Of a DNA stretch of 64,000 nt, positions 11,383 to 64,000 are shown one piece after another. Source of the stretch: Stieleria varia (GTDB taxonomy: Bacteria > Planctomycetota > Planctomycetia > Pirellulales > Pirellulaceae); the NCBI RefSeq assembly GCF_038443385.1, contig NZ_CP151726.1, forward strand, positions 3,224,001 to 3,288,000, written 5' to 3'. Made by a program: the position numbers and the translations under genes. Numbering within the stretch: position 1 is the stretch's first letter; each line of letters opens with the position of its first letter. Under the pieces are notes generated by a model. That model ran no database searches and was not told the origin of the DNA. It saw only the letters and a list, made by a program, of their open reading frames with translations.

Positions 11383-11501
11383 TAGTGGCCTGGGACAACT
11401 AGAAGTTAGGGTTTGCTGTAGTGGATCTTGTTAAAGATCCCACCGCTACAGGATCTTTAACAAGATCCACTACCCTAAAAGTAAGCTGAAACAGACCACT
11501 A
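11383..11501. repeat. MITE-like palindromic element, copy 2
   Basis: A 119-bp element ending TAGTGG...CCACTA, flanked on both sides by CTAG. It shares the palindromic core of the 4555-4672 copy almost base for base, but the outer 20-base arms are exchanged: its left arm (TAGTGGCCTGGGACAACT) matches the reverse complement of copy 1's right arm, and the reverse holds for its right arm. It lies in the roughly 430-base promoter region between two divergent genes, which otherwise shows nothing clear. Confidence 0.8.
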
Positions 11502-11572
11502 GACGCAAGCCGAGCCAGTTCGGTTTCCCTCCCACCGCTTCGAAAACTCCTGCCCCCCCTGCGAATCGATCC

Positions 11573-12766
11573 ATGTCGAACCTCGTTCGAATCTGTCTGA
11601 TCGCTACAGCGATTGCAATTCCGTGGAAAAGTGCCACGGCTCTCGACGAATCCGAATCACTCAGGAAATTAGTCCACGCGATCGGTGCCAGCGACGACGC
11701 GTCGGTTCAAGCCGCTTTGCTGCGGGGTATGCGGGCGGGCTTGGAAGGACGCCGTGACGTGCCGGCGCCGGGAGGCTGGGCCGATTTGCAGGAAAAGCTC
11801 GCAAGCAGCGGAGACCCAAACGTCCAATCCTTGGCGAACGAACTTGCTCAGATCTTTGGCGATCAGGCTGCCGCCGCACAAGCACTCGCGGTCTTGCAGG
11901 ACGCCCAATCAGAAACGACCAAACGACTGCAAGCGTTGAACTCTTTGCTCGCCCAACGCGACGAGCGGGTGCTCCCGATGCTGCGGATCTTGTTGGACGA
12001 TCCCGATCTGCGGTTGGCGGCGATCCGAGGCTACGCGACGCTGGCTGACCAAGACGCACCGGAAATCCTGATGCAGCGCTATGACAAGTGGTCGCCGGCA
12101 GATCGCCGCGCCGCGCTCGAAACACTTGCATCACGCAAACCGTACGCCGAAGTCCTACTGGGCGCGATCGGGGATCAGCGTGTCCGACGAGATGAAATCC
12201 CCGCGCACGTCGCTCGCTCGCTGAGCCTGATTCTCGGCGAGCGATTCGATCAGCAATATGGCACGGTGGCACCACTTGCGGCCGAGCGAGTTGCCAAGCT
12301 CGAGCATTTCAAGCGGCTGATCAGCGACGAAGCGTTGGCGGCTGCCGACGCAGCGGCAGGGCGAGCGGTGTTCCAAAAAACCTGTGCGTCCTGCCACGTC
12401 TTGTACGGCAGTGGGGCCAACATCGGCCCCGACCTGACCGGCTCCAACCGCGCCAACCTCGACTACTTGTTGCTCAACAGTGTCGATCCCAGTTACGACG
12501 TCCCCGATGGTTACAAGATGGTTTTGATTCAAACCGTTGACGGCCGCGTGCTCAATGGAGTCGTTGCGAGCGAAGACGCAACGCGTGTCGTGCTCAAGAC
12601 CGTTCAAGATCCCGAGGTGGTGGTGTTGAAGTCCGATATTGAGGCCCGCAAGATTTCTGACAAATCGATGATGCCCGACGGACAACTCGATCAACTCAAA
12701 CCTGCCGAAGTCATCGATTTGGTCAAGTATCTGCAAACGACCCAACAAGTGGAGTTGCCCCAATGA
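11573..12766 (+). CDS. PVC-type heme-binding protein (HEAT-like region plus cytochrome c domain)
   Basis: An exported 397-residue protein with signal peptide 'LIATAIAIPWKSATA'. The middle is a helical repeat region (HEAT-like, for example 'LLAQRDERVLPMLRILLDDPDLRLAAIRGYATL'). The C-terminal domain carries the c-type heme motif CASCH (Cys271-His275), then 'GPDLTGSNRANLDYLLLNSVDPS', the pattern of the planctomycete heme-binding domain (TIGR02603-type), whose 'IQTVDGRVLNGVV' and 'MMPDGQLDQL' segments are also present; the last Met is a likely axial ligand. It overlaps the dehydrogenase downstream by 4 bases, implying a two-gene unit in which this protein takes electrons from the dehydrogenase. 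Confidence 0.92.
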   Translation: MSNLVRICLIATAIAIPWKSATALDESESLRKLVHAIGASDDASVQAALLRGMRAGLEGRRDVPAPGGWADLQEKLASSGDPNVQSLANELAQIFGDQAAAAQALAVLQDAQSETTKRLQALNSLLAQRDERVLPMLRILLDDPDLRLAAIRGYATLADQDAPEILMQRYDKWSPADRRAALETLASRKPYAEVLLGAIGDQRVRRDEIPAHVARSLSLILGERFDQQYGTVAPLAAERVAKLEHFKRLISDEALAAADAAAGRAVFQKTCASCHVLYGSGANIGPDLTGSNRANLDYLLLNSVDPSYDVPDGYKMVLIQTVDGRVLNGVVASEDATRVVLKTVQDPEVVVLKSDIEARKISDKSMMPDGQLDQLKPAEVIDLVKYLQTTQQVELPQ

Positions 12767-15153
12767 ACGGAATCCGTCTCACCGCCGGCTCACCTCGTGA
12801 ACGTTCATCGTCGACAAAGGGTTTCCTGGCCGCCACCGCGATGGTCCTGGGTTGCTTGTCCTGCAGCATCGCGCCCGGCGATGAGCCAGCCAAAGAGCCC
12901 GTGAACCGTTTGCCGAAAAAACAGCATCGTACCAGCGACGCTCCGTTCTTGACGCCGCAGCAAGCCATGGCGGCAATGTCGATTCCCGACGGCTTCGACG
13001 TCTCGCTCTTTGCCTCCGAACCCGACATCGCCGAACCGATCGCGTTTTGTTTCGATGATCGGGGCAGGATTTGGGTCGTCGAGAATTTCAACTACCGGAC
13101 GCGACGCGAGCACACGGACGACCCGGTCAGCCGCATTCAGATTTTGACCGACACCAATGGTGACGGCCGTTTCGATGAGAAGAAAACCTTCGCCGACGAT
13201 CTGACCTTCTCATCCGGCATCGCGCTCGGTTTCGGTGGCGTGTTCGTCGGATCGCCACCCAACCTGTCTTTCATCCCCGATGCCGACGGTGACGATCGAC
13301 CCGACGGTCCTCCACAAGTATTGCTGGATGGCTGGGGAATCAACGATCGCCACGAAACGTTGAACAGTTTCAACTGGGGCCCCGACGGCTGGTTGTACGG
13401 TTGCCATGGCGTGTTCACGCAGTCTCGCGTCGGGCATCCCGGTGACGGCGATGAGGATCGCCAATTCATCGACGGCGGCATCTGGCGTTACCATCCCACA
13501 CGCAAGACGTTCGAAGTCTTTGCGAGAGGGCTGTCCAATCCTTGGGGATTCGATTTCGATGATCACGGACAAGGATTTGCAACCTGCTGCGTGATCCCTC
13601 ATTTGTTCCATGTCGTTCAAGCAGGCGTGTATCACAAACAAAGTTTGCCTCACGTCAATCCGCATATCTACGACGACATCAAAACCATACGCGACCACAC
13701 GCACTTGTCCGCGCACGGCGGGGCTCGAATCTATTTGGCCGACGCGTTTCCGCAGCAGTATCGCAATCGACTGTTCATGTGCAATATTCATGAACATGCG
13801 GTGCTGACGGATATCCTGAATCCCAAAGGATCCAGTTTCATTGGTTCGCATGGCGACGATTTTCTACCGACCAATGACTTAGCCTGGGTCGGTTTCAGCA
13901 TCGAGATCGGCCCCGAGGGCGGTGTGTACATCCTCGATTGGCACGACACCGACATCTGCGGCAATACGATCAATTTCCCCAACAGCGGTCGAATCTATCG
14001 AGTGATGCCCAGTGGGGCGAAGCCGATCGATCGTCCGAACTTGCGTTCGCTGTCGGATCAGCAGTTGGTGGATCTGCAGTGGAACAGCAACGATTGGTAC
14101 GTCCGCCAAGCAAGAGTGCTGCTGCAGTCGCGCGCCGCGGTGGGGAAACTGGATTTAGAAACTGTCCGCGGACAATTGACTCGCATGATGGATCAGGCGA
14201 CGTCCACTCCTCGACGATTACGTGCTCTCTGGGCATTGCACGCGATCGGGTGCGCTGATGACGCGATGTTGATCAAGTTGCTGGAGCATGACGAGCCCCA
14301 CATGCGTGCGTGGGCGATTCAGTTGCTGGGGGATCGCAGCAGCATTCACGCGTTCGGGCCACGTCAGACGGCGGTTGAGCAAGTGTTCTCGCAAGAGGTG
14401 CTGACCAAATTCGCGAGTTTGGCCGTGAATGATCCGTCGCCGATCGTGCGTTTGTACTTGGCGTCCGTGATCAGCCGAATGGACTTTCGTGATCGCTGGC
14501 CGATCCTGGCCGGACTGATTTCACATGCCGAAGACGCCGACGATGCGAACCTGCCCCGCATGTACTGGTTCGCATTGGAGCCGATGGTGAGCGACCATGC
14601 CGAGCAAGCGTTGTCGTTGGTCATCAACGGAAAACTCTCCAAGTTGCAAGAGTTCGTTGCACGCCGGATGGTCAGTGGCGATACGCCCGTTGCGGCAAAA
14701 GATTCACCTCGTAAACAGAGTCAGGCCGAGCAGAATCGTTTGATCGGAGCCGTCGCGCCGGATTTCACCGTCCATGCGGTGGGCGAAGGCGGCGTGGTGC
14801 GTCACACCAGTTTCCGCAACGCCGCGGCCATCCAGACGCATCCCTTGGATGCCAAGACCCCGAGTCGCTTGACGTCGCAGGTTCAGATTCCGGCAGAGGG
14901 AAAGACGACGCTGAAAGTTGGTGTCAGCCATCATCCGCACGGCGACTGGCAACTACGTGTTTTAGCTGGAGACAAAGTGTTGACCGAACGCATCGTCAGT
15001 TCCAAAACGGTTGGCCCGAACGAGTGGCTCGACGTGTCGGTGGATCTGACACCGCTGGCGGGGCAGACGATCTCGCTGACACTGGAGAATCGTGCGAACG
15101 ACTGGCACAACGAATGGGCGTACTGGCGCGAGGTCCGAGTGGTGACCGAATGA
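12763..15153 (+). CDS. PVC-type membrane-bound dehydrogenase with HEAT repeats
   Basis: A 796-residue exported protein. A hydrophobic segment near residues 22-36 ('GFLAATAMVLGCLSCS') could be a lipoprotein-type signal, since a Cys follows. The N-terminal two-thirds is a beta-propeller of the TIGR02604 type: 'IPDGFDVSLFASEPDIAEPIAFCFDD', 'GRIWVVENFNYRTR', 'DTNGDGRFDEKKTFADDL', 'GPDGWLYGCHGVF' and 'LSNPWGFDFDDHGQGF'. A helical HEAT-like region follows (about 440-620), then a C-terminal beta domain. There is no CxxCH; the heme is on the overlapping upstream gene. Related proteins are presumed to oxidise sugars or alcohols, but the substrate is unknown. Confidence 0.9.
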   Translation: MNGIRLTAGSPRERSSSTKGFLAATAMVLGCLSCSIAPGDEPAKEPVNRLPKKQHRTSDAPFLTPQQAMAAMSIPDGFDVSLFASEPDIAEPIAFCFDDRGRIWVVENFNYRTRREHTDDPVSRIQILTDTNGDGRFDEKKTFADDLTFSSGIALGFGGVFVGSPPNLSFIPDADGDDRPDGPPQVLLDGWGINDRHETLNSFNWGPDGWLYGCHGVFTQSRVGHPGDGDEDRQFIDGGIWRYHPTRKTFEVFARGLSNPWGFDFDDHGQGFATCCVIPHLFHVVQAGVYHKQSLPHVNPHIYDDIKTIRDHTHLSAHGGARIYLADAFPQQYRNRLFMCNIHEHAVLTDILNPKGSSFIGSHGDDFLPTNDLAWVGFSIEIGPEGGVYILDWHDTDICGNTINFPNSGRIYRVMPSGAKPIDRPNLRSLSDQQLVDLQWNSNDWYVRQARVLLQSRAAVGKLDLETVRGQLTRMMDQATSTPRRLRALWALHAIGCADDAMLIKLLEHDEPHMRAWAIQLLGDRSSIHAFGPRQTAVEQVFSQEVLTKFASLAVNDPSPIVRLYLASVISRMDFRDRWPILAGLISHAEDADDANLPRMYWFALEPMVSDHAEQALSLVINGKLSKLQEFVARRMVSGDTPVAAKDSPRKQSQAEQNRLIGAVAPDFTVHAVGEGGVVRHTSFRNAAAIQTHPLDAKTPSRLTSQVQIPAEGKTTLKVGVSHHPHGDWQLRVLAGDKVLTERIVSSKTVGPNEWLDVSVDLTPLAGQTISLTLENRANDWHNEWAYWREVRVVTE

Positions 15154-47405: not shown

Positions 47406-47936
47406 TCACGCAACGGGATTGTCAGCGACAAAATCACCGGATTTGCCACCCGATTTGCTCAGCAACCGGATCGGACCGATCACGGCACTGCGATCCGTCG
47501 ATTTGACCATGTCATAGACCGTCAAGACGCCGACAGAAGCCGCCGTCATCGCTTCCATCTCCACACCTGTCTTGCCCGTGTTGGCGACAGCAACGACGCA
47601 ACGCAACCGGCATGGCGAACCTGGAGTCGACGTATGCTGGGCATCCGGTGCATCCGTAGAGTTCTCGATCCACTGAAAATCCACGGAGACGCTGTCCAGC
47701 CCGATGCAATGGCACAACGGAATCAAATGCTGAGTCCATTTCGTCGCCCCGATCGCGGCGATCCGAGCCACCGCCAACACGTCTCCCTTGTCCGCAGACC
47801 CGCTACGAATCATCTCTGCGGTCTCAGCGGCCAAGACGATATCTGCCGCCGCAACGGCTCGACGCACCGTCACATCCTTCGCCGAAACGTCGACCATGTG
47901 AACATTGCCGTCCGCGTCAAAGTGTGTTGATTTCAC
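47406..47936 (-). CDS. moaC: cyclic pyranopterin monophosphate synthase MoaC
   Basis: Second step of molybdopterin biosynthesis. 176 residues. The active-site Lys50 is in 'SADKGDVLAVARIAAIG', His76 in 'HLIPLCHCI' and 'GVEMEAMTAASVGVLTVYDM' carries the later Asp/Lys. The motif reads HCI where most MoaC have HPL or HPI. The C-terminus 'GGKSGDF' is usual. Its ATG overlaps the stop codon of the large surface-protein gene. No other moa genes are in the window. Confidence 0.94.
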   Translation of the reverse strand: MKSTHFDADGNVHMVDVSAKDVTVRRAVAAADIVLAAETAEMIRSGSADKGDVLAVARIAAIGATKWTQHLIPLCHCIGLDSVSVDFQWIENSTDAPDAQHTSTPGSPCRLRCVVAVANTGKTGVEMEAMTAASVGVLTVYDMVKSTDRSAVIGPIRLLSKSGGKSGDFVADNPVA

Positions 47937-50857
47937 TGAATGCCACTTGGCTCAAGGTACCACTGCAGATCTTCGTCGTCATCTTCATCATGGCTTTGTC
48001 GATGAATCCGATCAACCGCCACAGCGTTGCCTGGCTCCAAACGCTCCGCTTCGCCTGCCTCGTTGGTCTCCCGACGCCGCAGGGCGATCTCGTTCACCAC
48101 GTTCAAAGCATCCAGCGCAGAAATCCGCAAGTCGCCGTTGACGTCACAGTCCAGCACCGGCAGCACACGGAAATAGATCCTGCCGTCTGAACCTCGGCTC
48201 GCGTGCCGAAACAGCAACTCGTTGATGATGTCCAACGCATCTCGAGCCGTCGTCATGCCGTCACCGTTGACGTCAAATGCGTCCACCGGGTTGGTGTACG
48301 GTGAGGTATCAGTCAATCGAACAGGCACCGCAATCAAATTGTTTTCTTCATCGGTCTCGGCCACCCGATCCTGGTGATCAACCGAAACGAGTAAGTAGTA
48401 GTCACCCAGCGCAGTTCCCTCAGGAATCATCAACGCAGCATCACTGACCACCTGCTCTGCTCCGGCGGCGATGCTGTCCGTCGCGAACGTCGTGATGACT
48501 GAATCGCTGTCGTCCAGCACCGCGTCGGTCGACCAGTGAACAGAATGTTCGGTCGGATGTGCCGGTCCAGGTCCCGCGTTGCGAATGATCCAATCCACAA
48601 GGATTTCATATCCGGGGGCGCCCGACAGTGGTTCGGGATCGCCGAGTGTTCCATCGGGGTCCACTGGTGACACGGCAGACAACTCCGCCGGCGGCAGAGG
48701 GATCGCCAACCGGTTATTGTTCTCGAGGGTCTCCAAGAATCGTTGCTCAGAATCCACCCAAGCGGCGATGTTGGTCGCACCGACAGGCACTGTCTCAAGC
48801 ATGGCGGCGAAATCAAAAACGACTTCTTTCGACACCTGTGACCCGCCCGCCGGCACTCGCGTGAATCCCGCCTGGGACAAATAGGTTCCCGACTGGTCCA
48901 CCCAGTACAGCCCTATTGAAACCAGCTCTGTTGGTAGAACATTTTCCGTTTGAAAGTGAAACTGGATCGTGCTGAAATCATCCGAGATGGCCAACGATTG
49001 CGCGATCAAATCAGGATGGACGGGGAAGAAAAACGGCGGTGGCAATGTGATTCCGAAACCGCCACCAGGATCCGCGATGACGCGCAAACGGGTCGCGCCG
49101 AAGGGCCTTGAATTGACCAACTCAAACGGCTCCAGCTCGACGTTGATCACACCGCTGGCACCGACGATAACGGAAACTTCCGCAGCCAATGCGAGTGATT
49201 CTTCGGATTCGTTCGACCATTCCAGACGCAAGGGAATTTCTTCGAATGCCAGCAGGTTCTGAGTGTTCAGCAGGATGGAAACCCGCTGCGTGAACGAGCT
49301 GTAGCTGGCCGACAAATTGGTCAACGCTCCCGGCAACGCCAGAAAGACTTCATTGTCCGTTTCATCGGCTTCCGCGAATGCAGCATCCGAGTCGACTATC
49401 GCCAACAGACCTGCCCCACCCACTGGTCGACCGGCGACGAAATCATTGCCACTAAACATCACGTCGATCGTTGTATCGTTCCCGACGGTGATCGTTTTCG
49501 TCGCCGCCAGTAACATTGGGTTGCCAACGGAATCTGTCCAGTAGAGTTCTGACGTGATCGTTTCCCCGGCAATCAAATGGTCCACGTCCACTCTCATCAC
49601 GACCGATTGAGGAGATGGACGTTGTAGCGACGTGGCTGTGATAACGGCTTGCAATGGCAGCGTGACTTGATTGTCCTCTTGGTTGACTTCCGGATAGTGA
49701 TTGCCATCGTCCACCACGGCGATCAAGCCAGCAGCGTCCGCCGGACGATTCAGCGACATCTCGCTGGCGGCAAAGTCCACGGTGGTGAATCGATTGACGC
49801 CGGGAACAATGGACTGCTTTGGTGCCGCCGCACCGATCCGGTTGCCTTCGGCATCCGTCCAAAAAAGCTCCACGTCCACGGGGTCCGCAATCAACAGATT
49901 CAATGTTTCCACGAGCACGGAAACGTTTTCGTTGTCTGCCGACTGCTCGATGCTTTGCGCGATCAAGAAAGGTTTGATATCCGTCGTACGCTCATTGTTC
50001 GACTCATTCGATTCCATGTGGCCTTGCGACTCATCGCCGACAACCAGAATCCCAGCCGCCCCGGCCGGCCGGCTGTACGCGCGTCCGGCTTGAATCACCA
50101 GATGATCGTCGCTTCCCTGAGACTGCACAGTCCATTCGTGAATCTTACCAAGGCGATTGTCTTGGTTGTCCAACCAGTAAGCTTCCATCTTCACCGGCAC
50201 CAACAGACTCGCATCGTTGATCTCGTATCCCGATTGGATCTGGCCGGCCGTTTGGGAAATCGAACGGTTGTACAAATCCCCAAACCAATCGCCAGTTGAT
50301 GACCATGTCCCCGATGCGGTGCCATAGTAGATGTCAAAATCCTCGACATACCCGCCCACCCCGGCATCGAAATAATCGCAGCCAAGATATCCGTAGGTCC
50401 CGCTCCAATCCCCGGTCAAACTCTCGAAGTCACCGACGACGTTTCCGGTAAACGTGCCTTGGTAACCCCAGTCGTCTCCCATCACGACATCGTTCCCGGT
50501 GAAGTTGCCGATGCTCAAGTTTCCGGTTCGAGGAATCAGCGTTCGCCCGGTTGTGCAGGGCTGCAGGACTTCCGGTGCCGTGTCGGTCACCGTTCCGTAG
50601 ACATGAGCGTTGCTGATCGTGCCGGTTTGGCTGCCCACGTTGCTGACGTGCAACAGAATCTCACCGGGCTCCATCTGGATGCGGGAGTTCAGATGCATTG
50701 ACGTAACGTCGATGCCAATGTCACCCTTCCAGATCCCTGCGGTCAGCAACCGCCTCGATTCAAGTGACTCCACCGAGAGCCGGGATCGTCGCGAATGTCT
50801 GGGTCGTCGGGATCGACTCGGCCGCTTTGTCAAAATGGGCATGTTGTCACTCAGCAT
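47933..50857 (-). CDS. secreted CARDB-repeat protein with dockerin-like end
   Basis: 974 residues. The N-terminus is basic ('RPSRSRRPRHSRRSRL') and followed by 'SVESLESRRLLTAG', the planctomycete extracellular sorting motif. Residues about 130-720 are beta-sandwich repeats of the CARDB type ('IEQSADNENVSVLVETLNLL', 'DLIAQSLAISDDFSTIQFHFQTEN', 'DVEVGN-like' strands). Near the C-terminus two EF-like loops 'DVNGDGMTTARDALDIINELL' (cut here to 20) and 'DVNGDLRISALDALNVVNEI' form a dockerin-type pair. A His/Asp-rich tail ends the protein. The stop overlaps the moaC start by 4 bases. Alternative start at 50842. Confidence 0.9.
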   Translation of the reverse strand: MLSDNMPILTKRPSRSRRPRHSRRSRLSVESLESRRLLTAGIWKGDIGIDVTSMHLNSRIQMEPGEILLHVSNVGSQTGTISNAHVYGTVTDTAPEVLQPCTTGRTLIPRTGNLSIGNFTGNDVVMGDDWGYQGTFTGNVVGDFESLTGDWSGTYGYLGCDYFDAGVGGYVEDFDIYYGTASGTWSSTGDWFGDLYNRSISQTAGQIQSGYEINDASLLVPVKMEAYWLDNQDNRLGKIHEWTVQSQGSDDHLVIQAGRAYSRPAGAAGILVVGDESQGHMESNESNNERTTDIKPFLIAQSIEQSADNENVSVLVETLNLLIADPVDVELFWTDAEGNRIGAAAPKQSIVPGVNRFTTVDFAASEMSLNRPADAAGLIAVVDDGNHYPEVNQEDNQVTLPLQAVITATSLQRPSPQSVVMRVDVDHLIAGETITSELYWTDSVGNPMLLAATKTITVGNDTTIDVMFSGNDFVAGRPVGGAGLLAIVDSDAAFAEADETDNEVFLALPGALTNLSASYSSFTQRVSILLNTQNLLAFEEIPLRLEWSNESEESLALAAEVSVIVGASGVINVELEPFELVNSRPFGATRLRVIADPGGGFGITLPPPFFFPVHPDLIAQSLAISDDFSTIQFHFQTENVLPTELVSIGLYWVDQSGTYLSQAGFTRVPAGGSQVSKEVVFDFAAMLETVPVGATNIAAWVDSEQRFLETLENNNRLAIPLPPAELSAVSPVDPDGTLGDPEPLSGAPGYEILVDWIIRNAGPGPAHPTEHSVHWSTDAVLDDSDSVITTFATDSIAAGAEQVVSDAALMIPEGTALGDYYLLVSVDHQDRVAETDEENNLIAVPVRLTDTSPYTNPVDAFDVNGDGMTTARDALDIINELLFRHASRGSDGRIYFRVLPVLDCDVNGDLRISALDALNVVNEIALRRRETNEAGEAERLEPGNAVAVDRIHRQSHDEDDDEDLQWYLEPSGIQ

Positions 50858-54285: not shown

Positions 54286-57200
54286 TCACTTCTGACGCAG
54301 CAAATAGCTCACCACGTCCAGTAACTCCTGTTCGCTGAGCGACTCGTCCAACCCCGCCGGCATCGTCGACACGGAACTCGGCGTGATCTGCTCGATCTCA
54401 GTGAGCATCAATGTCACAGTCTCGCCACTGGCGATCTGAACCTGGATCGATGAGGCGGTCTCGCCAACCAAAAGCCCGGTCAATACTCGACCGCTGTGGG
54501 TCAAGACCTGATAGGTTCCATAGTCTCGCACGATGCTGGCCGACGGGAACACGATCGATTCCAGCAAATCGTCGGCCGAGCGATTGGCTCCGATCGTGGT
54601 CAAGTCCGGACCGACGGCCTTGCCGATCTCCGCGATCCGGTGGCACGAACTGCACTTTGCTTTCTCCCCGACAAAGACACTGGCGCCTCGCAGAGGATCC
54701 CCCAGTTCCAAACGACCGCGCAGTGCCTCCAGTCGCGCCAGACGCTGTTGACGATGTGATTTCAGTTGGTCCAACAATGCGTTGGCGCGCTGGAGTGTTG
54801 CCGGGGGAAATTTCTTAACGACATCCGAAAGCTCACTTTCCGCCAACGACCACTTCGCCTGTGCACCATCAATCGCGTCGATGAAACCCACCGCCGTCGG
54901 CTCGTCCACCCCACGCGCATACACGCGCAACAACACTCGCAACTCGGCCGGTGAAACGCTGGTCAAAAGCGGTGTGACCTGCTGCATTTGACCGGACGAC
55001 AGTCTCGCATCGGCGATCGCTTGCGCCGCCAATTGAGTCGCCCGGGGCGAGACATTGAGTTCAATGATCTCTATCAATCGGTTCAGGATTACATCGTCCA
55101 AACGACTGCCATCCGTCGCGATCGCCGACATGGCTTCCACGCGAATCGGCAAAGCGAACTTTTCATTCGTAGCGATCTGTTGCAACTCCTCAGCGAAGTG
55201 ATTCCCACGCATGGACTTGACGGTCACGATCGTTTCGCCCACTTCGGACTCCAAACGGCTGATCAGTCGCTCACGCAACGGCTCCAGCCAGCTCGCATGC
55301 GGCTCGCTTGGGCCGGCCTGCCGGATCGCGGCAAGTACGACACGTTCAGCGGCCGGCGCAACATCATTCTGTTGTAGGATTTCGCCCGCCAGTTCTGCGA
55401 CGTTCGGCTGGGAAATGAATGCCGCCATCAGCACCCCGGCTTGTTCGATCGACCGCAACGTCACCTCATCAACCGTTGACGGATCCTCGCTCTGGGGCGA
55501 GCTATTCGACAGTGTCGTTTGCAGTAACCGTCGGACTTCCGCGGACCACTCAGGGTGCCCGCTCGTGATCCGAACGCACTGCCGCACCGTTTCCTCGTCG
55601 TCTGAATTCAGACCCATCATCACATCACTGAACTGCAACGTAACGTCCGGCATCTGATCGCATGCGACCAACAAACCACGAATCAAACGAGAGTGGACCG
55701 ATTCCGATGACCGTATTTGGCTCAAGGCCGATTTCATTGGCTCGGACCGCCCGATCTCCAACAACGCATAAACGATAGCGTGTTCTTCGCTGCGATCCAT
55801 CTCGTCGTGTGAAAGTGATTCCAGCAGGTGAGCGACATGCGCGGCGTTTCCGATCATCCCCAACGAGGTCGCCGCTTGCCGACGAACCGCCGCGACAGGA
55901 TCGCTCAACATCGAAACGAGCACTTCGCCGTCTCGACCGTCGTCACTGCCACCTCCGACACGCCCCAGCCCATAGCAAGCAGCCTGACGGATCGCTGCAT
56001 CGCTATCCCGCAGACCGACATGCAGTGCCGCAGCGGCCGCGTTTCGCAACACGTTCGCTTCACCCAAACGCGTCAATGCCCAAATCGCATGGGTGCGGAT
56101 TCGAATGTCTGCACGCTTCAACGCCGTTTCCAGCGGTTGGACTGCATCGCGACCACGCGAGACACAATGATCGACGGCTTGTTGGCGTACGCTGTGACGC
56201 GTGTCGTTGAAAAGCTTGATCAGCTCGGCGACGGATAGGCTTGTCCAATCGATTCGCCGGCCTCGCGGATCGACCATGCGTGTCATGCCGTCACGGCTGA
56301 TCCGATAGATTCCTCCCAGCAAATCGGGCTTGGCAAACTGAGACGTCGGACAGCCGCGATAAAACCAGCCTCCGGTATCAATCACCAACAAGCTGCCATC
56401 GGCGTCCTCGATCACATCGGTGGGATGAAACTCACGGCTGGGTGAATGCAAGAACTCATGTTGCGTCACACGGTACGTCGAACCCTCAGGCTGCATCGAC
56501 AGCCGGACGACTTTGCCGCTGTTAAAAAACGTCACGAACAAGTCATCCGTCATGGAGTGGTCCATCACGCCGCTGCGATAACGGGTGATTCCCGAAACGG
56601 CGACATGGCCGAATCGATGAGCAGGCCCCAACAGATCCCCCGTCACCTGGACTTCTTTCAAGACACGTTCGCGATGCGGATATGTCCCTCCGTGCAGCCA
56701 ATGCACCAGGCAATCCACGCGAGGCCGCGTGTACAGAATGTTGACGGTCCCCAGCATGTCTCCGGAGTCGGTGAAGTCAATCTCAACCGGATTGTCCATG
56801 CCACCGCCGCAGTGAATCCTACGATCGGTACCATCGGTCTTGCAGGAAAACAGATAGGAACCTTCGCGGCTGCTGACCACCTGCCCCGACTCGTCGGTGA
56901 ACTCGTGTCCGTGGTAGCCGTCGGTCCAGTAAAGCCGCCCGTCGGGACCGAAGAAACACCCGTGAATGCTGGCCGCATTGCCGTTGTAACCGAACTGAGA
57001 AACCAGAATCTTTCGCTCGTCGGCAACGCCATCGTCATCCGTATCGGTCAGTTTCCAAATGTTTGGCGGCGAAGCCACGTACAGCGAACCGTCGTGCCAC
57101 ACGCCGCCCATGGGAAAAGTCATCTTGTCGGCGAACACAGTGAACGAATCAAACGTTCCGTCGTCATCCGAATCCACCAGCCGATGAATCGCGTTGGGCA

Positions 57201-58863
57201 GATGAGCCTCCAACTCGTCGTTGGTCATGTTCACGCCGGCGTTGTTACAGACGTACAAGCGTCCTTGATCGTCAAGGCAACCCATCGTGGGATGAGTCAC
57301 CAACGGCGGCCCCGCGACCAACCGCGCCGAATAGCCCTCGGGCAACTCGATCGGGGCGGGTTGAAATCCGCTGGGCAACGGCGGTGGGTTCACCGAGGTC
57401 AACTGCGCCAGTTCTTCGTCGATCCCATCGTGCAAGTGTGCTTGCGAGATGCCGCCGTTCCACAAGTCATATTTGGGCGACGCATGTTGATCATAGAAAC
57501 GATCCATCCGACGTTTGAGTTCGTCCCTCAGTCCCGTGTGCTGTGTCACGTTGACCAAATTGGTGAACTCATCCGGATCAGCAACGAGGTCGTACAACTC
57601 ATGCGGCCCATTGGGATGCCGATGCACGTACTTGTGAGACTCCGTACGAATGCACCTCAGGTTTTCGAATTCGTAGTAGACCGCATCGTCGTTCGTGGCT
57701 TGATGATCGGTGCTCTGTTCTGCCGTCAGGATCCGTGACAAATCACAACCGGGCAACGTTGGCCGCAACGGCATGTGCGCCTGCAAACCCAAGTATCCCA
57801 GCATCGTGGGGACAAAGTCATAGTTCGCCGTCATCTGATCGACTCGCGAGCCCGCAGTGATCTTGCCCGGATGACGCCAGATGTACGGTATCTGCATCAT
57901 GCCGTCGCGGGCCGTCAACGGCCGAGTGTGGTCGCCCATGCCAAAGAAGCCGCCATGACCGCCCACCCAACCTTGATCGGCTGCAAACACAACGACGGTG
58001 TCTTTGTCCAAACCCTTGGCCGCGAGTGTCCGCATGATTTCGCCCACGCCGTCGTCGACTCCGCTGACTTCCGTCGCCACGCGTCGAATGGATGTCGGGT
58101 TGTTGATGAAATCCAGATTATTGAGCTGCCAAGGATGCGGCTTACCTCGCGGAAATGAAAGTAATGGCTGCTGGGCATAAAACTCTGCATGACGATTCTG
58201 GCCATCTCGCAACAGCAACCGACTCAGCGCGTAGGGTCCGTTGTAAGCGAGAAACAAAAAGAACGGCTGCTCTGGCTCGGCTGCCTGCTGCTCGATGAAC
58301 CGTACTGCATGTCGCGTCCAAAAATCGGTCAAATATTCCGGCTCAGTTCGCAGCTTGCCGTTCTCGATGACCTGCGCACCATAAAAAGTGCTCGTGCCCC
58401 CATGCGGCATCGTGATCCAATAGTCATCAAGACCTTCCTGCGGTGACTCGTTCGCGCCCAAGTGCCATTTGCCGACCAATCCACAGTTGTAACCCGCTGC
58501 CTTCAGGATCTCTGGCAACGAAGTGAACTCGTCGAGCGTGCATCTTGCGTTGGGGCCGGTTTGCAAGGTGCCCGCACGCAAAAAGGAATGCACTCCGTGT
58601 TGAGAGGGGATCAAGCCGGTCAGCATCGTCGCCCGAGTCGGTGAGCACACTGGATTGGATGCAAACGCGCGTGTGAACAAAGTGCCTTCGCTGGCCAAAC
58701 GATCGATGTTCGGCGTTCGAATCTCTGGGTTGCCGTAACAACCCAGCGTCCACGCACCATGATTGTCGGTCAGGATCAGTACCACGTTGGGTGGCTTTGC
58801 GGACTCGGCCTGCTTGACCAGACAGATCAGACACAAAGCCAGAAACAATGACGTGCGTTTCAT
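54286..58863 (-). CDS. fusion of sulfatase, PVC dehydrogenase, HEAT repeats and cytochrome c domain
   Basis: 1525 residues with a signal peptide ('SLFLALCLICLVKQAESA'). Residues about 25-470 are a type I sulfatase: 'LTDNHGAWTLGCYGN', formylglycine motif C-S-P-T-R at 73-77 ('VCSPTRATMLTG'), and 'GLVGKWHLG'. Residues about 490-900 are the beta-propeller of the PVC membrane dehydrogenase ('LPEGYSARLVAGPPLVTHPT', 'DQGRLYVCNNAG', 'FGPDGRLYWTDGYHGHEF'). About 920-1370 are HEAT repeats. The end has CSSCH (Cys1404-His1408), 'GPDLTTIGANRSADDLLESI' and the TIGR02603-type tail. The second metal Asp of the sulfatase is Asn (DN instead of DD). Confidence 0.92.
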   Translation of the reverse strand: MKRTSLFLALCLICLVKQAESAKPPNVVLILTDNHGAWTLGCYGNPEIRTPNIDRLASEGTLFTRAFASNPVCSPTRATMLTGLIPSQHGVHSFLRAGTLQTGPNARCTLDEFTSLPEILKAAGYNCGLVGKWHLGANESPQEGLDDYWITMPHGGTSTFYGAQVIENGKLRTEPEYLTDFWTRHAVRFIEQQAAEPEQPFFLFLAYNGPYALSRLLLRDGQNRHAEFYAQQPLLSFPRGKPHPWQLNNLDFINNPTSIRRVATEVSGVDDGVGEIMRTLAAKGLDKDTVVVFAADQGWVGGHGGFFGMGDHTRPLTARDGMMQIPYIWRHPGKITAGSRVDQMTANYDFVPTMLGYLGLQAHMPLRPTLPGCDLSRILTAEQSTDHQATNDDAVYYEFENLRCIRTESHKYVHRHPNGPHELYDLVADPDEFTNLVNVTQHTGLRDELKRRMDRFYDQHASPKYDLWNGGISQAHLHDGIDEELAQLTSVNPPPLPSGFQPAPIELPEGYSARLVAGPPLVTHPTMGCLDDQGRLYVCNNAGVNMTNDELEAHLPNAIHRLVDSDDDGTFDSFTVFADKMTFPMGGVWHDGSLYVASPPNIWKLTDTDDDGVADERKILVSQFGYNGNAASIHGCFFGPDGRLYWTDGYHGHEFTDESGQVVSSREGSYLFSCKTDGTDRRIHCGGGMDNPVEIDFTDSGDMLGTVNILYTRPRVDCLVHWLHGGTYPHRERVLKEVQVTGDLLGPAHRFGHVAVSGITRYRSGVMDHSMTDDLFVTFFNSGKVVRLSMQPEGSTYRVTQHEFLHSPSREFHPTDVIEDADGSLLVIDTGGWFYRGCPTSQFAKPDLLGGIYRISRDGMTRMVDPRGRRIDWTSLSVAELIKLFNDTRHSVRQQAVDHCVSRGRDAVQPLETALKRADIRIRTHAIWALTRLGEANVLRNAAAAALHVGLRDSDAAIRQAACYGLGRVGGGSDDGRDGEVLVSMLSDPVAAVRRQAATSLGMIGNAAHVAHLLESLSHDEMDRSEEHAIVYALLEIGRSEPMKSALSQIRSSESVHSRLIRGLLVACDQMPDVTLQFSDVMMGLNSDDEETVRQCVRITSGHPEWSAEVRRLLQTTLSNSSPQSEDPSTVDEVTLRSIEQAGVLMAAFISQPNVAELAGEILQQNDVAPAAERVVLAAIRQAGPSEPHASWLEPLRERLISRLESEVGETIVTVKSMRGNHFAEELQQIATNEKFALPIRVEAMSAIATDGSRLDDVILNRLIEIIELNVSPRATQLAAQAIADARLSSGQMQQVTPLLTSVSPAELRVLLRVYARGVDEPTAVGFIDAIDGAQAKWSLAESELSDVVKKFPPATLQRANALLDQLKSHRQQRLARLEALRGRLELGDPLRGASVFVGEKAKCSSCHRIAEIGKAVGPDLTTIGANRSADDLLESIVFPSASIVRDYGTYQVLTHSGRVLTGLLVGETASSIQVQIASGETVTLMLTEIEQITPSSVSTMPAGLDESLSEQELLDVVSYLLRQK

Positions 58864-58891: not shown

Positions 58892-60124
58892 TCATTCCCA
58901 GCCCACCGGTTGTGTCCAAGCTTGTTGCTTCTGATCCTTGAAGGACGGATCGGAGTGATCTTGGCTGCTGGTCACGACCGCGCGGACATACAGCTCGGTT
59001 CCGGTCATGGTGTAGCTGGATGAAGTCTCAGAGCTGGAAGCGACCACCACGCCGATCCGTTTTTCTTCGGTTTCAGCTTCCCGTAAAGTCGCGATGAACT
59101 TCGTTTCGTAGGTCACTCCGGGCTCCGCTGCGATCTTGACCGTCAGCGTTTGTGAATCAGCTTTAAAATTCACATCGCTGAGCGTCACGCCGCTGGAAGC
59201 ATAGAAGTCACCGGCACGCATCGCAGCGATCAGGTGCTCTGGCGTCAAGAATCGACTGCGTACCATCACCCAACCACGACCGGGACGCGAGCCGGGTTTG
59301 CCGTGATATTCGTGGCTGTCATCCGTCGCGATCCCCATCATCGGCGGCACATCTAGATTCGTGCGTCGGATCGCGTTGCACAGATCCCACATCCGTTCAA
59401 TGCTTGGATGGTCGTCGTCGCCCAACTGATTGACACCAGGATGTCCGTTGTAGACTTCAAAGAATCGCTCCGAGACCACTGCCGCCAAGTCCTCTGCGGT
59501 GACGGCATAGCCAAAGTTCGGGTGATTGATGTGGGGCAGCACGGATCTGCCGTGATGCTTCTCGTGATCCAGGATCGCTCGCAAGTTATTCTGCATGGCC
59601 TCTCGCACCGTCTCACCGCCAGCCGGCTTGAGCGCCTCGGCCAAATTCGTTGCGTTGATGTGAACCGGTTTGCCTTCGGCGCGATCGCTGATTTCCTCCG
59701 CCGGGATCAGGATGAACTCGCCGCTTCGCTCCAGCAGATAACGAAACTCATCCAACGGCTTCAGACGTACTTCTGTGCCTCCGGATTCTGCTTCGCGTGT
59801 TTCCACCCAATGGTTACCAAACCGCGTGGTGTAGCGTTCTAGAATCCCATCGTCGCTGCGATCGGTGATCTTCTTCAGCGACATCCACCGCTGGCCTTCG
59901 CTGAGCACATTGTGATCGGTGAGAGCGAGGAAGTGGTAACCGCGGGTTCGGTACCAATCGCCGATCATTTCCGGAAACTCATCGCCGTCACTCCACAGCG
60001 AGTGCGTGTGCAGGTTTCCCTTCCACCAACGCGGTTGCCCAAAGTCCACCGGTTCATCCGCGTGGGAGACCGTCGAAACACAGATCGCGACGGCGACGAA
60101 ACAAAGGGTCCAGATGCGTGACAT
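58892..60124 (-). CDS. exported PHP-domain metal-dependent hydrolase
   Basis: 410 residues from the ATG at 60124, with signal peptide 'LCFVAVAICVSTVSHA'. The PHP start is 'WWKGNLHTHSLWSDGD' (HxH and the later D), then 'RGYHFLALTDHNVLSEG', 'LIPAEEIS', 'PHINHPNFGYA' and 'GIATDDSHEYH'. Such proteins act as phosphoesterases or nucleotidases; the extracytoplasmic location is unusual. The C-terminal ~100 residues are a beta domain. It is 28 bases downstream from nothing but 28 bases upstream of the fusion gene's start, same strand, so the two could share a transcript. Confidence 0.88.
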   Translation of the reverse strand: MSRIWTLCFVAVAICVSTVSHADEPVDFGQPRWWKGNLHTHSLWSDGDEFPEMIGDWYRTRGYHFLALTDHNVLSEGQRWMSLKKITDRSDDGILERYTTRFGNHWVETREAESGGTEVRLKPLDEFRYLLERSGEFILIPAEEISDRAEGKPVHINATNLAEALKPAGGETVREAMQNNLRAILDHEKHHGRSVLPHINHPNFGYAVTAEDLAAVVSERFFEVYNGHPGVNQLGDDDHPSIERMWDLCNAIRRTNLDVPPMMGIATDDSHEYHGKPGSRPGRGWVMVRSRFLTPEHLIAAMRAGDFYASSGVTLSDVNFKADSQTLTVKIAAEPGVTYETKFIATLREAETEEKRIGVVVASSSETSSSYTMTGTELYVRAVVTSSQDHSDPSFKDQKQQAWTQPVGWE

Positions 60125-60261
60125 GATGTTTCCAGAAAGGGAGAGGTGGGACAGTGTAGTGGGATTCGCCAGAGTTCCCGTCGCCACGATTCGCTAACGA
60201 ATTTCAACTGACGACTCGTGGCCGGCGACTGACCATTGTAGATGACCGCTCGATCACCATG

Positions 60262-61352: not shown

Positions 61353-62600
61353 CTATTGGTTCAGCTGTTCCTCGATGACTTCTTTCATGTCACGCGTACC
61401 CAAAGAACCCCACAACCCGTAGGAGCTTGCGGTTCCAGCAGGCAGACCCGGTGCGTCACGGCAGACGGTATTGGCCTCAAGATTGCCAGTTTCGACGCTG
61501 TCGGTCATGAACACCACGGCTCCGTCGCCCATCAACACGTGAGCACCACCGGAGTGGCGGCTACCCGCAGTTGAGATCACGCCAGAGTGATTGCCGTCGC
61601 CACCATCATGCACGCAACTGGGAGAGTTCGGAGGCAGAATGGTGTGGAAGGCCGTGTAGTACGGCCGCGAATCAGCCCAACGAGTGGCCTTGCCCTGAGA
61701 CAGGTTGGCACTGACCGTTGCAGCTGGATCGTAGAACTGGGGACGAAGTGGATCGATGTGAGCACCTTCCTTGCAACGAGCCGGAGTCAAGACGGTTTCG
61801 TTCGTGTTGATCATGGTGGTGATGTTGCGAACGAAATCCGCACTGATCTCACGCTTGCCACCGGACGTGTTGACTTCGCCAGCAGCAATCGTGTTGGAAA
61901 GACCATCGAGAACGTCACGGAACTTAGATTCGTTACGATTCCAGAAGAATCCGCGTTGTGCCGAACGTGCTCGTGTCACAGCCCAGTCTTCGTCACGGTT
62001 GTTCTGGTTGCCCCAGAAACCGTAATCGTTGATCCCGCCATTGTGACCTCGGTCATTGGCGTCACCGACGCAACAAGCATAGTTCGTGCGTGCAAGTTGT
62101 CCTGGACCACGAGCTTGTCCCGAGTCACTGGGACAACGGTAGGTTGGAACCTGAGTGACCCAAGGCACATAAGTGGTGACCCATGGACAAGGCCCCATCG
62201 CATGCCACGCACCATTGACGGTGCCAGGCAAGGTTGCGCCAGCAGTGACCTGCTGACTGGGGTTGGAGATTTGCTCCCACAATGCTTGCTGCTCGATGTA
62301 CGGCAGGATAGGCACCAACCAACTGAGAAACAGCCGGTTGGATTGGTTGGTCGCGTCCGTCATGGATGGGACTCGCTTGCTACCCGTTCCGTTGGTGGGC
62401 AACTGCTTGAACGAGCTGTGGTAGTTCTGAATCCCAAGACCGATTTGCTTGAAATTGTTACTGCACGACATACGTCGCGCGGCTTCGCGTGCTGCCTGAA
62501 CCGCTGGCAGCAGCAAGCCAACGAGGATGCCAATGATGGCAATCACGACCAACAGTTCCACCAACGTGAAACCCGATCGCAAAGAATGAGTTCTTTGCAT
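61353..62600 (-). CDS. DUF1559 domain protein with prepilin-type N-terminus (first copy)
   Basis: 415 residues. The N-terminus is a type IV pilin-like segment, 'RSGFTLVELLVVIAIIG', with the Gly-Phe cleavage site, then an amphipathic hydrophobic helix. The rest is the DUF1559 (SBP_bac_10) domain, one of the most expanded families in planctomycetes: 'SWLVPILPYIEQQALWEQI', 'CPSDSGQARGPGQLARTNYA', 'GLSNTIAAGEV' and 'HSGGAHVLMGDGAVVFMTDSV' near the end. AAGGAG lies before the start. Processing by a prepilin peptidase and placement in a pseudopilus-like or surface structure is likely but unshown. Confidence 0.95.
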   Translation of the reverse strand: MQRTHSLRSGFTLVELLVVIAIIGILVGLLLPAVQAAREAARRMSCSNNFKQIGLGIQNYHSSFKQLPTNGTGSKRVPSMTDATNQSNRLFLSWLVPILPYIEQQALWEQISNPSQQVTAGATLPGTVNGAWHAMGPCPWVTTYVPWVTQVPTYRCPSDSGQARGPGQLARTNYACCVGDANDRGHNGGINDYGFWGNQNNRDEDWAVTRARSAQRGFFWNRNESKFRDVLDGLSNTIAAGEVNTSGGKREISADFVRNITTMINTNETVLTPARCKEGAHIDPLRPQFYDPAATVSANLSQGKATRWADSRPYYTAFHTILPPNSPSCVHDGGDGNHSGVISTAGSRHSGGAHVLMGDGAVVFMTDSVETGNLEANTVCRDAPGLPAGTASSYGLWGSLGTRDMKEVIEEQLNQ

Positions 62601-62998
62601 AGAAGACTCTCCTTGAATAGAAAAACACCAATTGAAAACAGAAACCCCAAATGGGTCATTTAAGGTAACCGATGACCGCGTTGCGGTGGTAGGGAATTAT
62701 GTGAAAATTCCACCGCGAGATCGTGGGACATAAGACAATCCCCATCTGCCCATGGCCCCTCTAAGGAGGTGTGGGTGCGGCGAGGCGGGAATAAAACTCT
62801 AAAAAAGCGGGTGCGACCACCTGGCCCACTTGGCGATCACTGTGGAATTTGCATCCAAGGCGATCAAATGAAGTGAGTGGAGAAGCTACTCCCTGAACCC
62901 ATTGGCCAGCCACACAGAAGTATCGGTAGCCTGCTTCTGGATTTGCGATTCAATCTCTGGGTTCAAGCCAGCCACAAGAGAGAGAGGGGGAGTCTTGT
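62601..62998. other. intergenic region between tandem DUF1559 genes, no gene seen
   Basis: About 400 bases upstream of the first DUF1559 gene on its strand. It should carry that gene's promoter; a clear box was not assigned. Frames here have no translation signals. Confidence 0.4.
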
Positions 62999-63031
62999 AA
63001 AAAAACCTCGCCTGCGGATGGCAGGCGAGGT
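62999..63031 (-). terminator. rho-independent terminator of the second DUF1559 gene
   Basis: On the minus strand CCTCGCCTGCC-ATC-CGCAGGCGAGG then TTTTTTT; 29-61 bases after the second DUF1559 stop codon. Same design as the one at 61294. Confidence 0.88.
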
Positions 63032-63059
63032 CACGATTGTCGTCAAATTGCGGTCAACC

Positions 63060-64000
63060 TTATTGGTTCAGCTCTTCCTCAATGACTTCTTTCATGTCGC
63101 GTGTCCCCAAGGACCCCCATAACCCGTAAGGGCTTGCGGTTCCGGGAGGAAGACCTGGTGCGTCGCGGCAGACGGTATTGCTTTCCAGGTTGCCGGTTTC
63201 GACGCTGTCGGTGATGAACACCACGGCTCCGTCACCCATCAACACGTGAGCACCACCGGAGTGGCGGCTACCCGCAGTTGAGATGACGCCAGGGTGATTG
63301 CCGTCATTATTTGCGGTCACGCAATTGGGGGCATTCGGAGGGAGAATAGTCAGGAACGCCGAGTAGTAAGCCCGCGAATCAGCCCAGCGACAGTGCTTGG
63401 ATTGAGACAGGCTTCCACTTACCGTCGCACTTGGGTCATAGAACTGGGGGCGTAAGGGATCGATGTGAGGCCCTTCCTTGCAACGAGCAGGAATCAGAAT
63501 CGTATTGTTAGTGACCTGCATGCTTGTGATGTTTCGGACAAAATCCGCACTGATCTCACGCTTGCCGCCTGAGGTGTTGACTTCGCCAGCAGCAATGGTG
63601 TTGGAGAGACCATCCAGAACATCACGGAACTTAGCTTCGTTACGATTCCAGAAGAATCCGCGTTGTGCAGCACGTGCTCGTGTCACAGACCAGTTTTCGT
63701 CCCGGTCGTTGAGGTTGCCCCAGAAACCGTAATCGTTGATCCCACCATTGTGAGCACGGTCATTGGCGTCACCAAGCGAACAAGCGTAATTCGTCCGTGC
63801 AAGCTGCCCCGGACCAAGTGCCTTTCCGGCGTCGCTTGGGCAGCGATAGGTCGGGACCTGAGTGACCCAGGGCACATAAGTGGTGACCCAGGGGCAAGGC
63901 CCCATCGCATTCCACGCTCCATTGACGCTAGCCGGTAAGGTCGCTCCAGCCGTGACCTGCTGACTGGGATTGGAGATCTGCTCCCACAACGCTTGCTGCT
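63060..64000 (-). CDS. DUF1559 domain protein (second copy), 5' end outside window
   Basis: Partial: 313 codons are visible and the frame is still open at the right edge, so the prepilin N-terminus lies outside. It is a close paralogue of the gene at 61353-62600, differing at scattered residues (for example 'CPSDAGKALGPGQLARTNYACS' vs 'CPSDSGQARGPGQ', shown short). The C-terminal 'HSGGAHVLMGDGAVVFITDSV' and 'GTRDMKEVIEEELNQ' are the same. A recent tandem duplication is likely. It has its own terminator. Confidence 0.94.
   Translation of the reverse strand, partial: QQALWEQISNPSQQVTAGATLPASVNGAWNAMGPCPWVTTYVPWVTQVPTYRCPSDAGKALGPGQLARTNYACSLGDANDRAHNGGINDYGFWGNLNDRDENWSVTRARAAQRGFFWNRNEAKFRDVLDGLSNTIAAGEVNTSGGKREISADFVRNITSMQVTNNTILIPARCKEGPHIDPLRPQFYDPSATVSGSLSQSKHCRWADSRAYYSAFLTILPPNAPNCVTANNDGNHPGVISTAGSRHSGGAHVLMGDGAVVFITDSVETGNLESNTVCRDAPGLPPGTASPYGLWGSLGTRDMKEVIEEELNQ

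Follow-up and report, generated by a model that had tools for sequence, protein, structure and literature searches.

A predicted sulfatase-propeller-HEAT-heme fusion protein of Stieleria varia and its relatives in Planctomycetota and Verrucomicrobiota

Introduction

Can a sulfatase and a heme-bearing propeller protein belong to a single planctomycete polypeptide, and if so, do the two halves work on the same sugar? This question is raised by one gene of Stieleria varia, located in a 64,000-nucleotide stretch of DNA that we analyzed as a whole (here, the window; coordinates refer to it unless another locus is named). A sequence-only reading had placed a sulfatase, a propeller, HEAT repeats, and a heme domain in one frame, had taken this fusion to be exceptional, and had suggested that desulfation and oxidation of one sugar could be coupled on the exported chain. 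We take the planctomycete-specific cytochromes PSCyt1-3 to be families other than that of the fused protein. Sulfatase genes are reported to be often located near the genes of PSCyt1-3, and a carbohydrate role has been suggested (PMC5615132). Sulfatases with extra domains are also on record: like the protein studied here, those with HEAT_2 domains noted in two planctomycetes combine a sulfatase with additional modules, but the relevant section of that report names no propeller or heme partner (PMC4807772). These proteins could be members of the family described below. In the open-access full-text literature, represented mostly by listings and abstract openings, we found no description of a sulfatase-propeller-HEAT-heme fusion, nor did the text of PMC8756737 yield a passage on TIGR02603; the architecture is apparently undescribed so far.

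Gene and module architecture

The fused gene, delimited by open reading frame calling and by homologues, occupies positions 54286 to 58863 on the minus strand. It comprises 1525 codons without an internal stop, from an ATG at 58863 to a stop codon at 54286-54288, which bears out the claim of one uninterrupted frame for all four modules and supplies the strand, left unstated before. All of its features therefore lie on the minus strand. The product begins with a signal peptide (residues 1 to 21; 58801 to 58863), a hydrophobic stretch judged by eye, which supports the prediction of an exported single polypeptide. This is followed by an S1 sulfatase (residues about 22 to 478; 57430 to 58800), recognized by Pfam and by S1 carbohydrate sulfatases in the PDB; a short, Pro-rich linker whose length varies in the alignment (residues about 479 to 504; 57352 to 57429); a beta-propeller of the TIGR02604/DUF7133 type (residues about 505 to 870; 56254 to 57351), identified by Pfam and NCBIfam, an AlphaFold2 model, and a match to the structure 1qbi; a HEAT repeat scaffold (residues about 871 to 1383; 54715 to 56253), assigned from Pfam, the AlphaFold2 model, and a fold match; and a c-type heme domain, TIGR02603 (residues 1388 to 1522; 54298 to 54702), found with NCBIfam and resembling the cytochrome Kustd1711. 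The C-S-P-T-R formylglycine motif (residues 73 to 77; 58633 to 58647; also seen in the row alignment) and the CxxCH motif (residues 1404 to 1408; 54640 to 54654) were read in translation exactly where they had been reported.

According to Pfam, the protein contains Sulfatase (PF00884) at residues 25 to 359 (E 8e-45; 153.8 bits against a cut-off of 25), SGSH_C at 322 to 456, and DUF7133 at 505 to 829, as well as HEAT_2 and Cytochrom_C. NCBIfam assigned TIGR02604 to residues 510 to 858 (151.9 bits; curated cut-off, 122.2) and TIGR02603 to 1388 to 1522 (106 bits; curated cut-off, 68.15). All modules are far beyond chance in sequence searches; fold matches likewise support the sulfatase, propeller, and heme parts. 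PVC-type heme-binding CxxCH proteins have three of these modules (TIGR02604, HEAT, and TIGR02603) in the same order, with both models over cut-off; the fused protein differs from them by an S1 sulfatase added at the N terminus. At 11435 to 15150 on the plus strand of the window, overlapping frames carry a TIGR02603 heme domain (11435 to 12763) and then a TIGR02604 propeller (12661 to 15150), both over cut-off, so there the heme and propeller modules are in separate genes.

An assembly error or a frameshift could have merged two genes, an explanation to which we give almost no credence. Near-full-length homologues (51 to 63% identity) from other assemblies, including the single-contig genomes G109, G167-G169, G207, G208, G210, and G264, cross the junction in one frame. 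These homologues rule out an artefactual origin, and they clear residues 470 to 490, where a hidden frameshift had been considered. No evidence favoring an artefact was found.

Distribution of the fusion

Both halves occur in one frame in 22 of 241 genomes of the Pirellulaceae, the family of S. varia; this count takes in one gene split across two contig ends (G203) and one cut by a contig end (G238). A scan of genome contigs gave a single frame matching both halves at 32 of 65 fetched loci, 8 of the 32 being labelled Verrucomicrobiota; several of the 65 loci are cut by contig ends, and some come from the same genomes as in the family scan. Of 392 sampled genomes from the phylum, 3 carry the fusion, that of S. 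varia included. According to these comparisons, the fusion is an old, recurring protein family in two phyla, Planctomycetota and Verrucomicrobiota. The sequence-only reading must be corrected on this point, since the fusion is no one-off, while its single exported polypeptide, complete S1 sulfatase, and heme domain, with ligands invariant among readable rows, were upheld.

In the S. varia genome, a single contig of 9.7 Mb, the fused protein is the sole full-length one among at least 199 listed part-matches (best 150 of 206 candidates scored), which are mostly sulfatases and PVC heme proteins. A search of plasmids gave matches in 735 of 72,556 records, none covering 80% of the fused protein. 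The neighbors of two distant plasmid sulfatases were uninformative, one of the records having no annotated features there.

Sulfatase half

Of 40 fused rows, 39 keep Cys73, Arg77, Lys132, His134, and Asp33 (the remaining one is cut off), as do all 23 solo rows; Asp296 is kept in all 40 and all 23. Three other residues are atypical: where the fused protein has Asn34, Tyr211, and Gln297, 11 other sulfatase rows from the S. varia genome have Asp (11), His (11), and Asn (10) or His (1), respectively. At His312, those rows show varied letters or gaps. These four residues are kept in the fused rows and in the 23 solo rows, except for one solo row with Asn at 297. Asp33, Asp296, Asn34, Gln297, Tyr211, and His312 presumably occupy metal- or substrate-pocket positions of S1 sulfatases. 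Because none of the 11 other rows from this genome has the fused protein's residue at position 34, 211, or 297, the sulfatase half is placed in a distinct sulfatase subgroup.

An AlphaFold2 model of residues 22 to 895 (mean pLDDT, 75.0; pTM, 0.72) matched S1 carbohydrate sulfatases in Foldseek, the best being BT3177 S1_11 (E 2.5e-29). With the S1 formylglycine sulfatases that are among its closest in the PDB (BT3177 S1_11, 7p24; Pedobacter, 7stt), the protein shares the fold, CxPxR, Asp33, Lys132, His134, and Asp296; it departs from S1 sulfatases in Asn34, Tyr211, Gln297, and His312, as judged against the 11 other S. varia rows, and in the attached redox protein. The evidence supports a complete S1 half of the formylglycine type, with the catalytic Cys and Arg and a predicted sulfatase activity. 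The S. varia genome has 16 matches to the FGE family. Elsewhere, a 995-aa frame of this subgroup (L142:4391-7375) appears to contain a long insert or a second domain, and a similar long frame in G181 has one internal stop.

Heme domain and propeller

CxxCH and Met1501 (54361 to 54363), the likely axial heme ligand, are present in 54 of 54 readable rows of the 61 aligned. The heme domain matches the second (C-terminal) domain of the diheme cytochrome c Kustd1711 with 33 to 34% identity, and Met1501 aligns with Met292, reported as the distal heme ligand of Kustd1711 (7zs0; PMC11791136). Kustd1711 differs from the fused protein in that it is free-standing and carries two hemes. From these similarities, the terminal domain is a predicted c-type heme domain with His and Met ligands. 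One partial ResB match was found in the S. varia genome.

The AlphaFold2 model of residues 492 to 1525 (mean pLDDT, 88.1; pTM, 0.80) has as its best propeller match the PQQ glucose dehydrogenase 1qbi (E 4.2e-7; TM 0.55 by target and 0.25 by query; 13% identity), followed by luciferin-regenerating enzyme. Compared with PDB sequences, the propeller profile gave chance-level matches only, with 1qbi kin at E 0.4. In this weak profile alignment, counted by hand, positions 377, 406, and 408 of 1qbi face Asn, His, and Thr, which are invariant in 41 aligned rows. In glucose dehydrogenase, Lys377, Arg406, and Arg408 are presumably the PQQ ligands. The fused protein and the soluble PQQ glucose dehydrogenase are alike in the propeller fold but differ at the three presumed ligand positions, all replaced, and in most of their sequence. 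None of 10 single-contig fusion genomes (of 24 known) had pqqC or a pqqE match over cut-off, and 14 controls likewise gave none; weak partial pqqE matches occurred in 2 of the 10. With the controls silent too, these negatives are weak evidence. We judge it unlikely that the propeller uses PQQ made by the host itself; a dehydrogenase would need another cofactor.

Evolution of the two halves

In a sulfatase tree of 74 rows, the fused and solo members of the subgroup cluster together, apart from the 11 other S. varia sulfatases. The cluster contains 31 planctomycete fused rows (plus the fragment L125), 8 verrucomicrobial fused rows, 22 solo planctomycete rows, and 1 verrucomicrobial solo row (L115). 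L125, which represents half of a fused gene cut at a contig end, carries the solo label in this tree and was counted as fused in the clade test and residue counts. Matched stretches of at least 700 aa (L141 and L142) and spans of at most 300 query residues, e.g., L118, were left out. The best tree does not unite the fused rows in one clade, as it joins the planctomycete ones to the solo group as sisters (88/85); constraining all fused rows to one clade costs 9.6 log units and is not rejected (p 0.109).

The propeller-HEAT-heme tree, from which matched stretches spanning at most 600 query residues were left out, has 73 rows. Here, one supported group (SH-aLRT 99) unites 35 fused rows with 18 solo ones; the other 20 rows fall outside it and are all solo. 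The tree requires 8 changes between fused and solo labels, at least 6 of which are forced by its starred branches, and a single clade of fused propeller parts is rejected (p 3e-8; simpler model, with L057 and the long outgroup L003 left out). L057, counted as solo in the tree, and L083 are on the same contig and start at its end, which makes their solo status doubtful. Divergence of the two halves is matched, with a Mantel r of 0.905 for 34 fused rows and 0.878 for the 27 planctomycete rows; none of 2000 permutations was as high in either set.

Four downstream gene families are common to the fused loci L060-L063 and the loci L081, L083, L084, L097, and L123, each family occurring in 4 of the latter 5. 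This suggests that the two sets represent the same genomic place with and without the sulfatase (L083 being cut at its 5' end). Proteins lacking the sulfatase have a signal-like start of their own in 16 of 17 cases checked by eye; L093 is masked there. A single clade of fused sulfatases is not rejected and one of fused propeller parts is, which fits one fusion plus losses. Judging from the trees, the history is most simply explained by a single old fusion whose halves were passed down together, the sulfatase part being lost several times afterwards; the sulfatase part may also have been regained or fused a second time, and the fusion in Verrucomicrobiota may be independent. The repeated losses of the sulfatase part point to a propeller-HEAT-heme part that functions without it.

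Genomic neighborhood and co-occurrence

Upstream of the fused gene, a codirectional gene (58892 to 60187, minus strand) ends 28 bases before the fused ATG and has a CehA/McbA metallohydrolase match below cut-off, with a PHP-like motif seen by eye. The two genes possibly form one operon; this upstream gene does not recur as a neighbor across fused loci. A pair of closely similar frames lies at 61353 to 64000 (minus strand), the first opening with a pilin-like start and the second continuing past the edge of the window; they are probably DUF1559 paralogues in tandem. On the same strand, a 974-aa frame (47933 to 50857) has repeated CARDB-like units and, at its end, dockerin-like calcium motifs, judged by eye.

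Neighboring frames of at least 180 aa within two genes of 25 fused loci revealed no recurrent operon partner: of 70 such frames, 59 were scanned, giving Sulfatase in 6, DMFA2_C in 4, and 3keto-disac_hyd in 1. Clustering of neighbors at 27 fused and 32 other loci gave no non-self cluster in more than 4 fused loci, and the four clusters reaching 4 (L060-L063) are those common to sulfatase-less loci. Nor did we see a recurrent sugar pathway among neighboring genes at the fused loci examined.

Among 219 non-fused family genomes, 24 have the solo sulfatase (including partial matches in G002 and G056), 33 have the solo propeller part, and 11 have both, where 3.6 were expected (p 1.2e-4; by genus, p 0.016). 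No association remains (p 0.46) among 49 genomes of at least 7 Mb, a biased subset drawn from genomes having a match. In the phylum sample, both solo halves were found in 11 genomes, the sulfatase only in 5, and the propeller part only in 3 (p 2e-15), a co-occurrence carried by just three genera (by genus, p 4e-4). A second copy of the subgroup sulfatase was found in none of 22 fused family genomes at E 1e-110 (best 6 candidates each), and a second propeller part in none of the 21 with a readable one at E 1e-170 (best 3 scored). Propeller-part paralogues of 34 to 40% identity, below that threshold, exist in several fused genomes (G081, G182, G192, G193, and G238). As evidence that the halves work together, co-occurrence and copy number are suggestive only.

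Discussion

We tentatively favor, at somewhat less than an even chance, an exported four-module PVC enzyme that desulfates a sugar, oxidizes it, and passes the electrons on through its heme, and that arose by one old fusion followed by losses of the sulfatase part. After export, the sulfatase would strip a glycan fragment of a sulfate ester, and the propeller would then work on the sugar so exposed, with oxidation as the likeliest reaction; electrons would reach the heme of the same chain and, from there, a periplasmic cytochrome. The ancestral fusion would have been inherited together, the sulfatase part being lost later in lineages that kept the rest. In this scheme, the coupling of desulfation to oxidation on one chain is inferred, and a propeller dehydrogenase acting on the sugar desulfated by the same chain is an unproven prediction.

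Two other readings of the protein deserve weight. The halves may share only export and location and act on separate substrates, the fusion being a convenient tether; we regard this as unlikely, if a serious contender. Several lineages appear to have dropped the sulfatase part while retaining the remainder, which means that coupling of the two steps is not required; the lack of recurrent neighbors and the nonsignificant co-occurrence once genome size is restricted point the same way. On the other hand, the fusion has been retained in two phyla with matching divergence of its halves, and neither half has another close copy in the fused family genomes at the thresholds applied, though the more distant propeller paralogues exist. 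Alternatively, the propeller could be a glycoside hydrolase similar to beta-galactosidase, making the protein a sulfatase-glycosidase whose heme serves in electron transfer or structure only, which we consider improbable. The sole assayed propeller-HEAT-heme relative that we found in the literature, Lac161_ORF7 (AGW45552), is a reported beta-galactosidase. As described in that study, it has the TIGR02604-HEAT_2-TIGR02603 architecture of the fused protein and differs in that no sulfatase is named; the purified protein released glucose from lactose (Km, 1.8 mM; kcat, 13.2 per s), and the cosmid carrying its gene restored lactose growth of an S. meliloti lac mutant (PMC5342196). The label is repeated in a later paper (PMC7823827), and 18 related propeller proteins were counted among the unclassified glycosidase-like proteins of one planctomycete (PMC5352709). 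The rank of luciferin-regenerating enzyme, second after 1qbi among propeller fold matches, also agrees with a hydrolase.

Several details of the same study temper the hydrolase reading. Lac161_ORF7 was made in IPTG-induced BL21(DE3)pLysS, and because the printed genotype lists no lac deletion, contamination by host LacZ may, by our own inference, lie behind the activity; moreover, its authors remark on a LacZ-like Km, the three assayed proteins have similar values (1.8, 2.5, and 3.2 mM), and the same cosmid holds a second candidate, ORF10 (PMC5342196). The invariant heme ligands of the family likewise favor redox work.

A bolder form of the oxidative scheme, which we think has a small but real chance, is a new class of glycan enzyme in which desulfation would be followed by oxidation at a propeller site that uses neither PQQ nor a known hydrolase mechanism, with electrons delivered to the enzyme's own heme. 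If this is true, the breakdown of sulfated glycans in PVC bacteria would be coupled to respiration outside the cytoplasm. The natural fusion points to a sulfatase subgroup and a heme enzyme that may be partners, and it offers a single protein on which to examine desulfation, sugar oxidation, and heme reduction together. It would make directly testable the suggestion that cytochrome proteins of the planctomycete type take part in carbohydrate breakdown (PMC5615132), and it provides a concrete route to asking whether PVC bacteria oxidize sulfated sugars.
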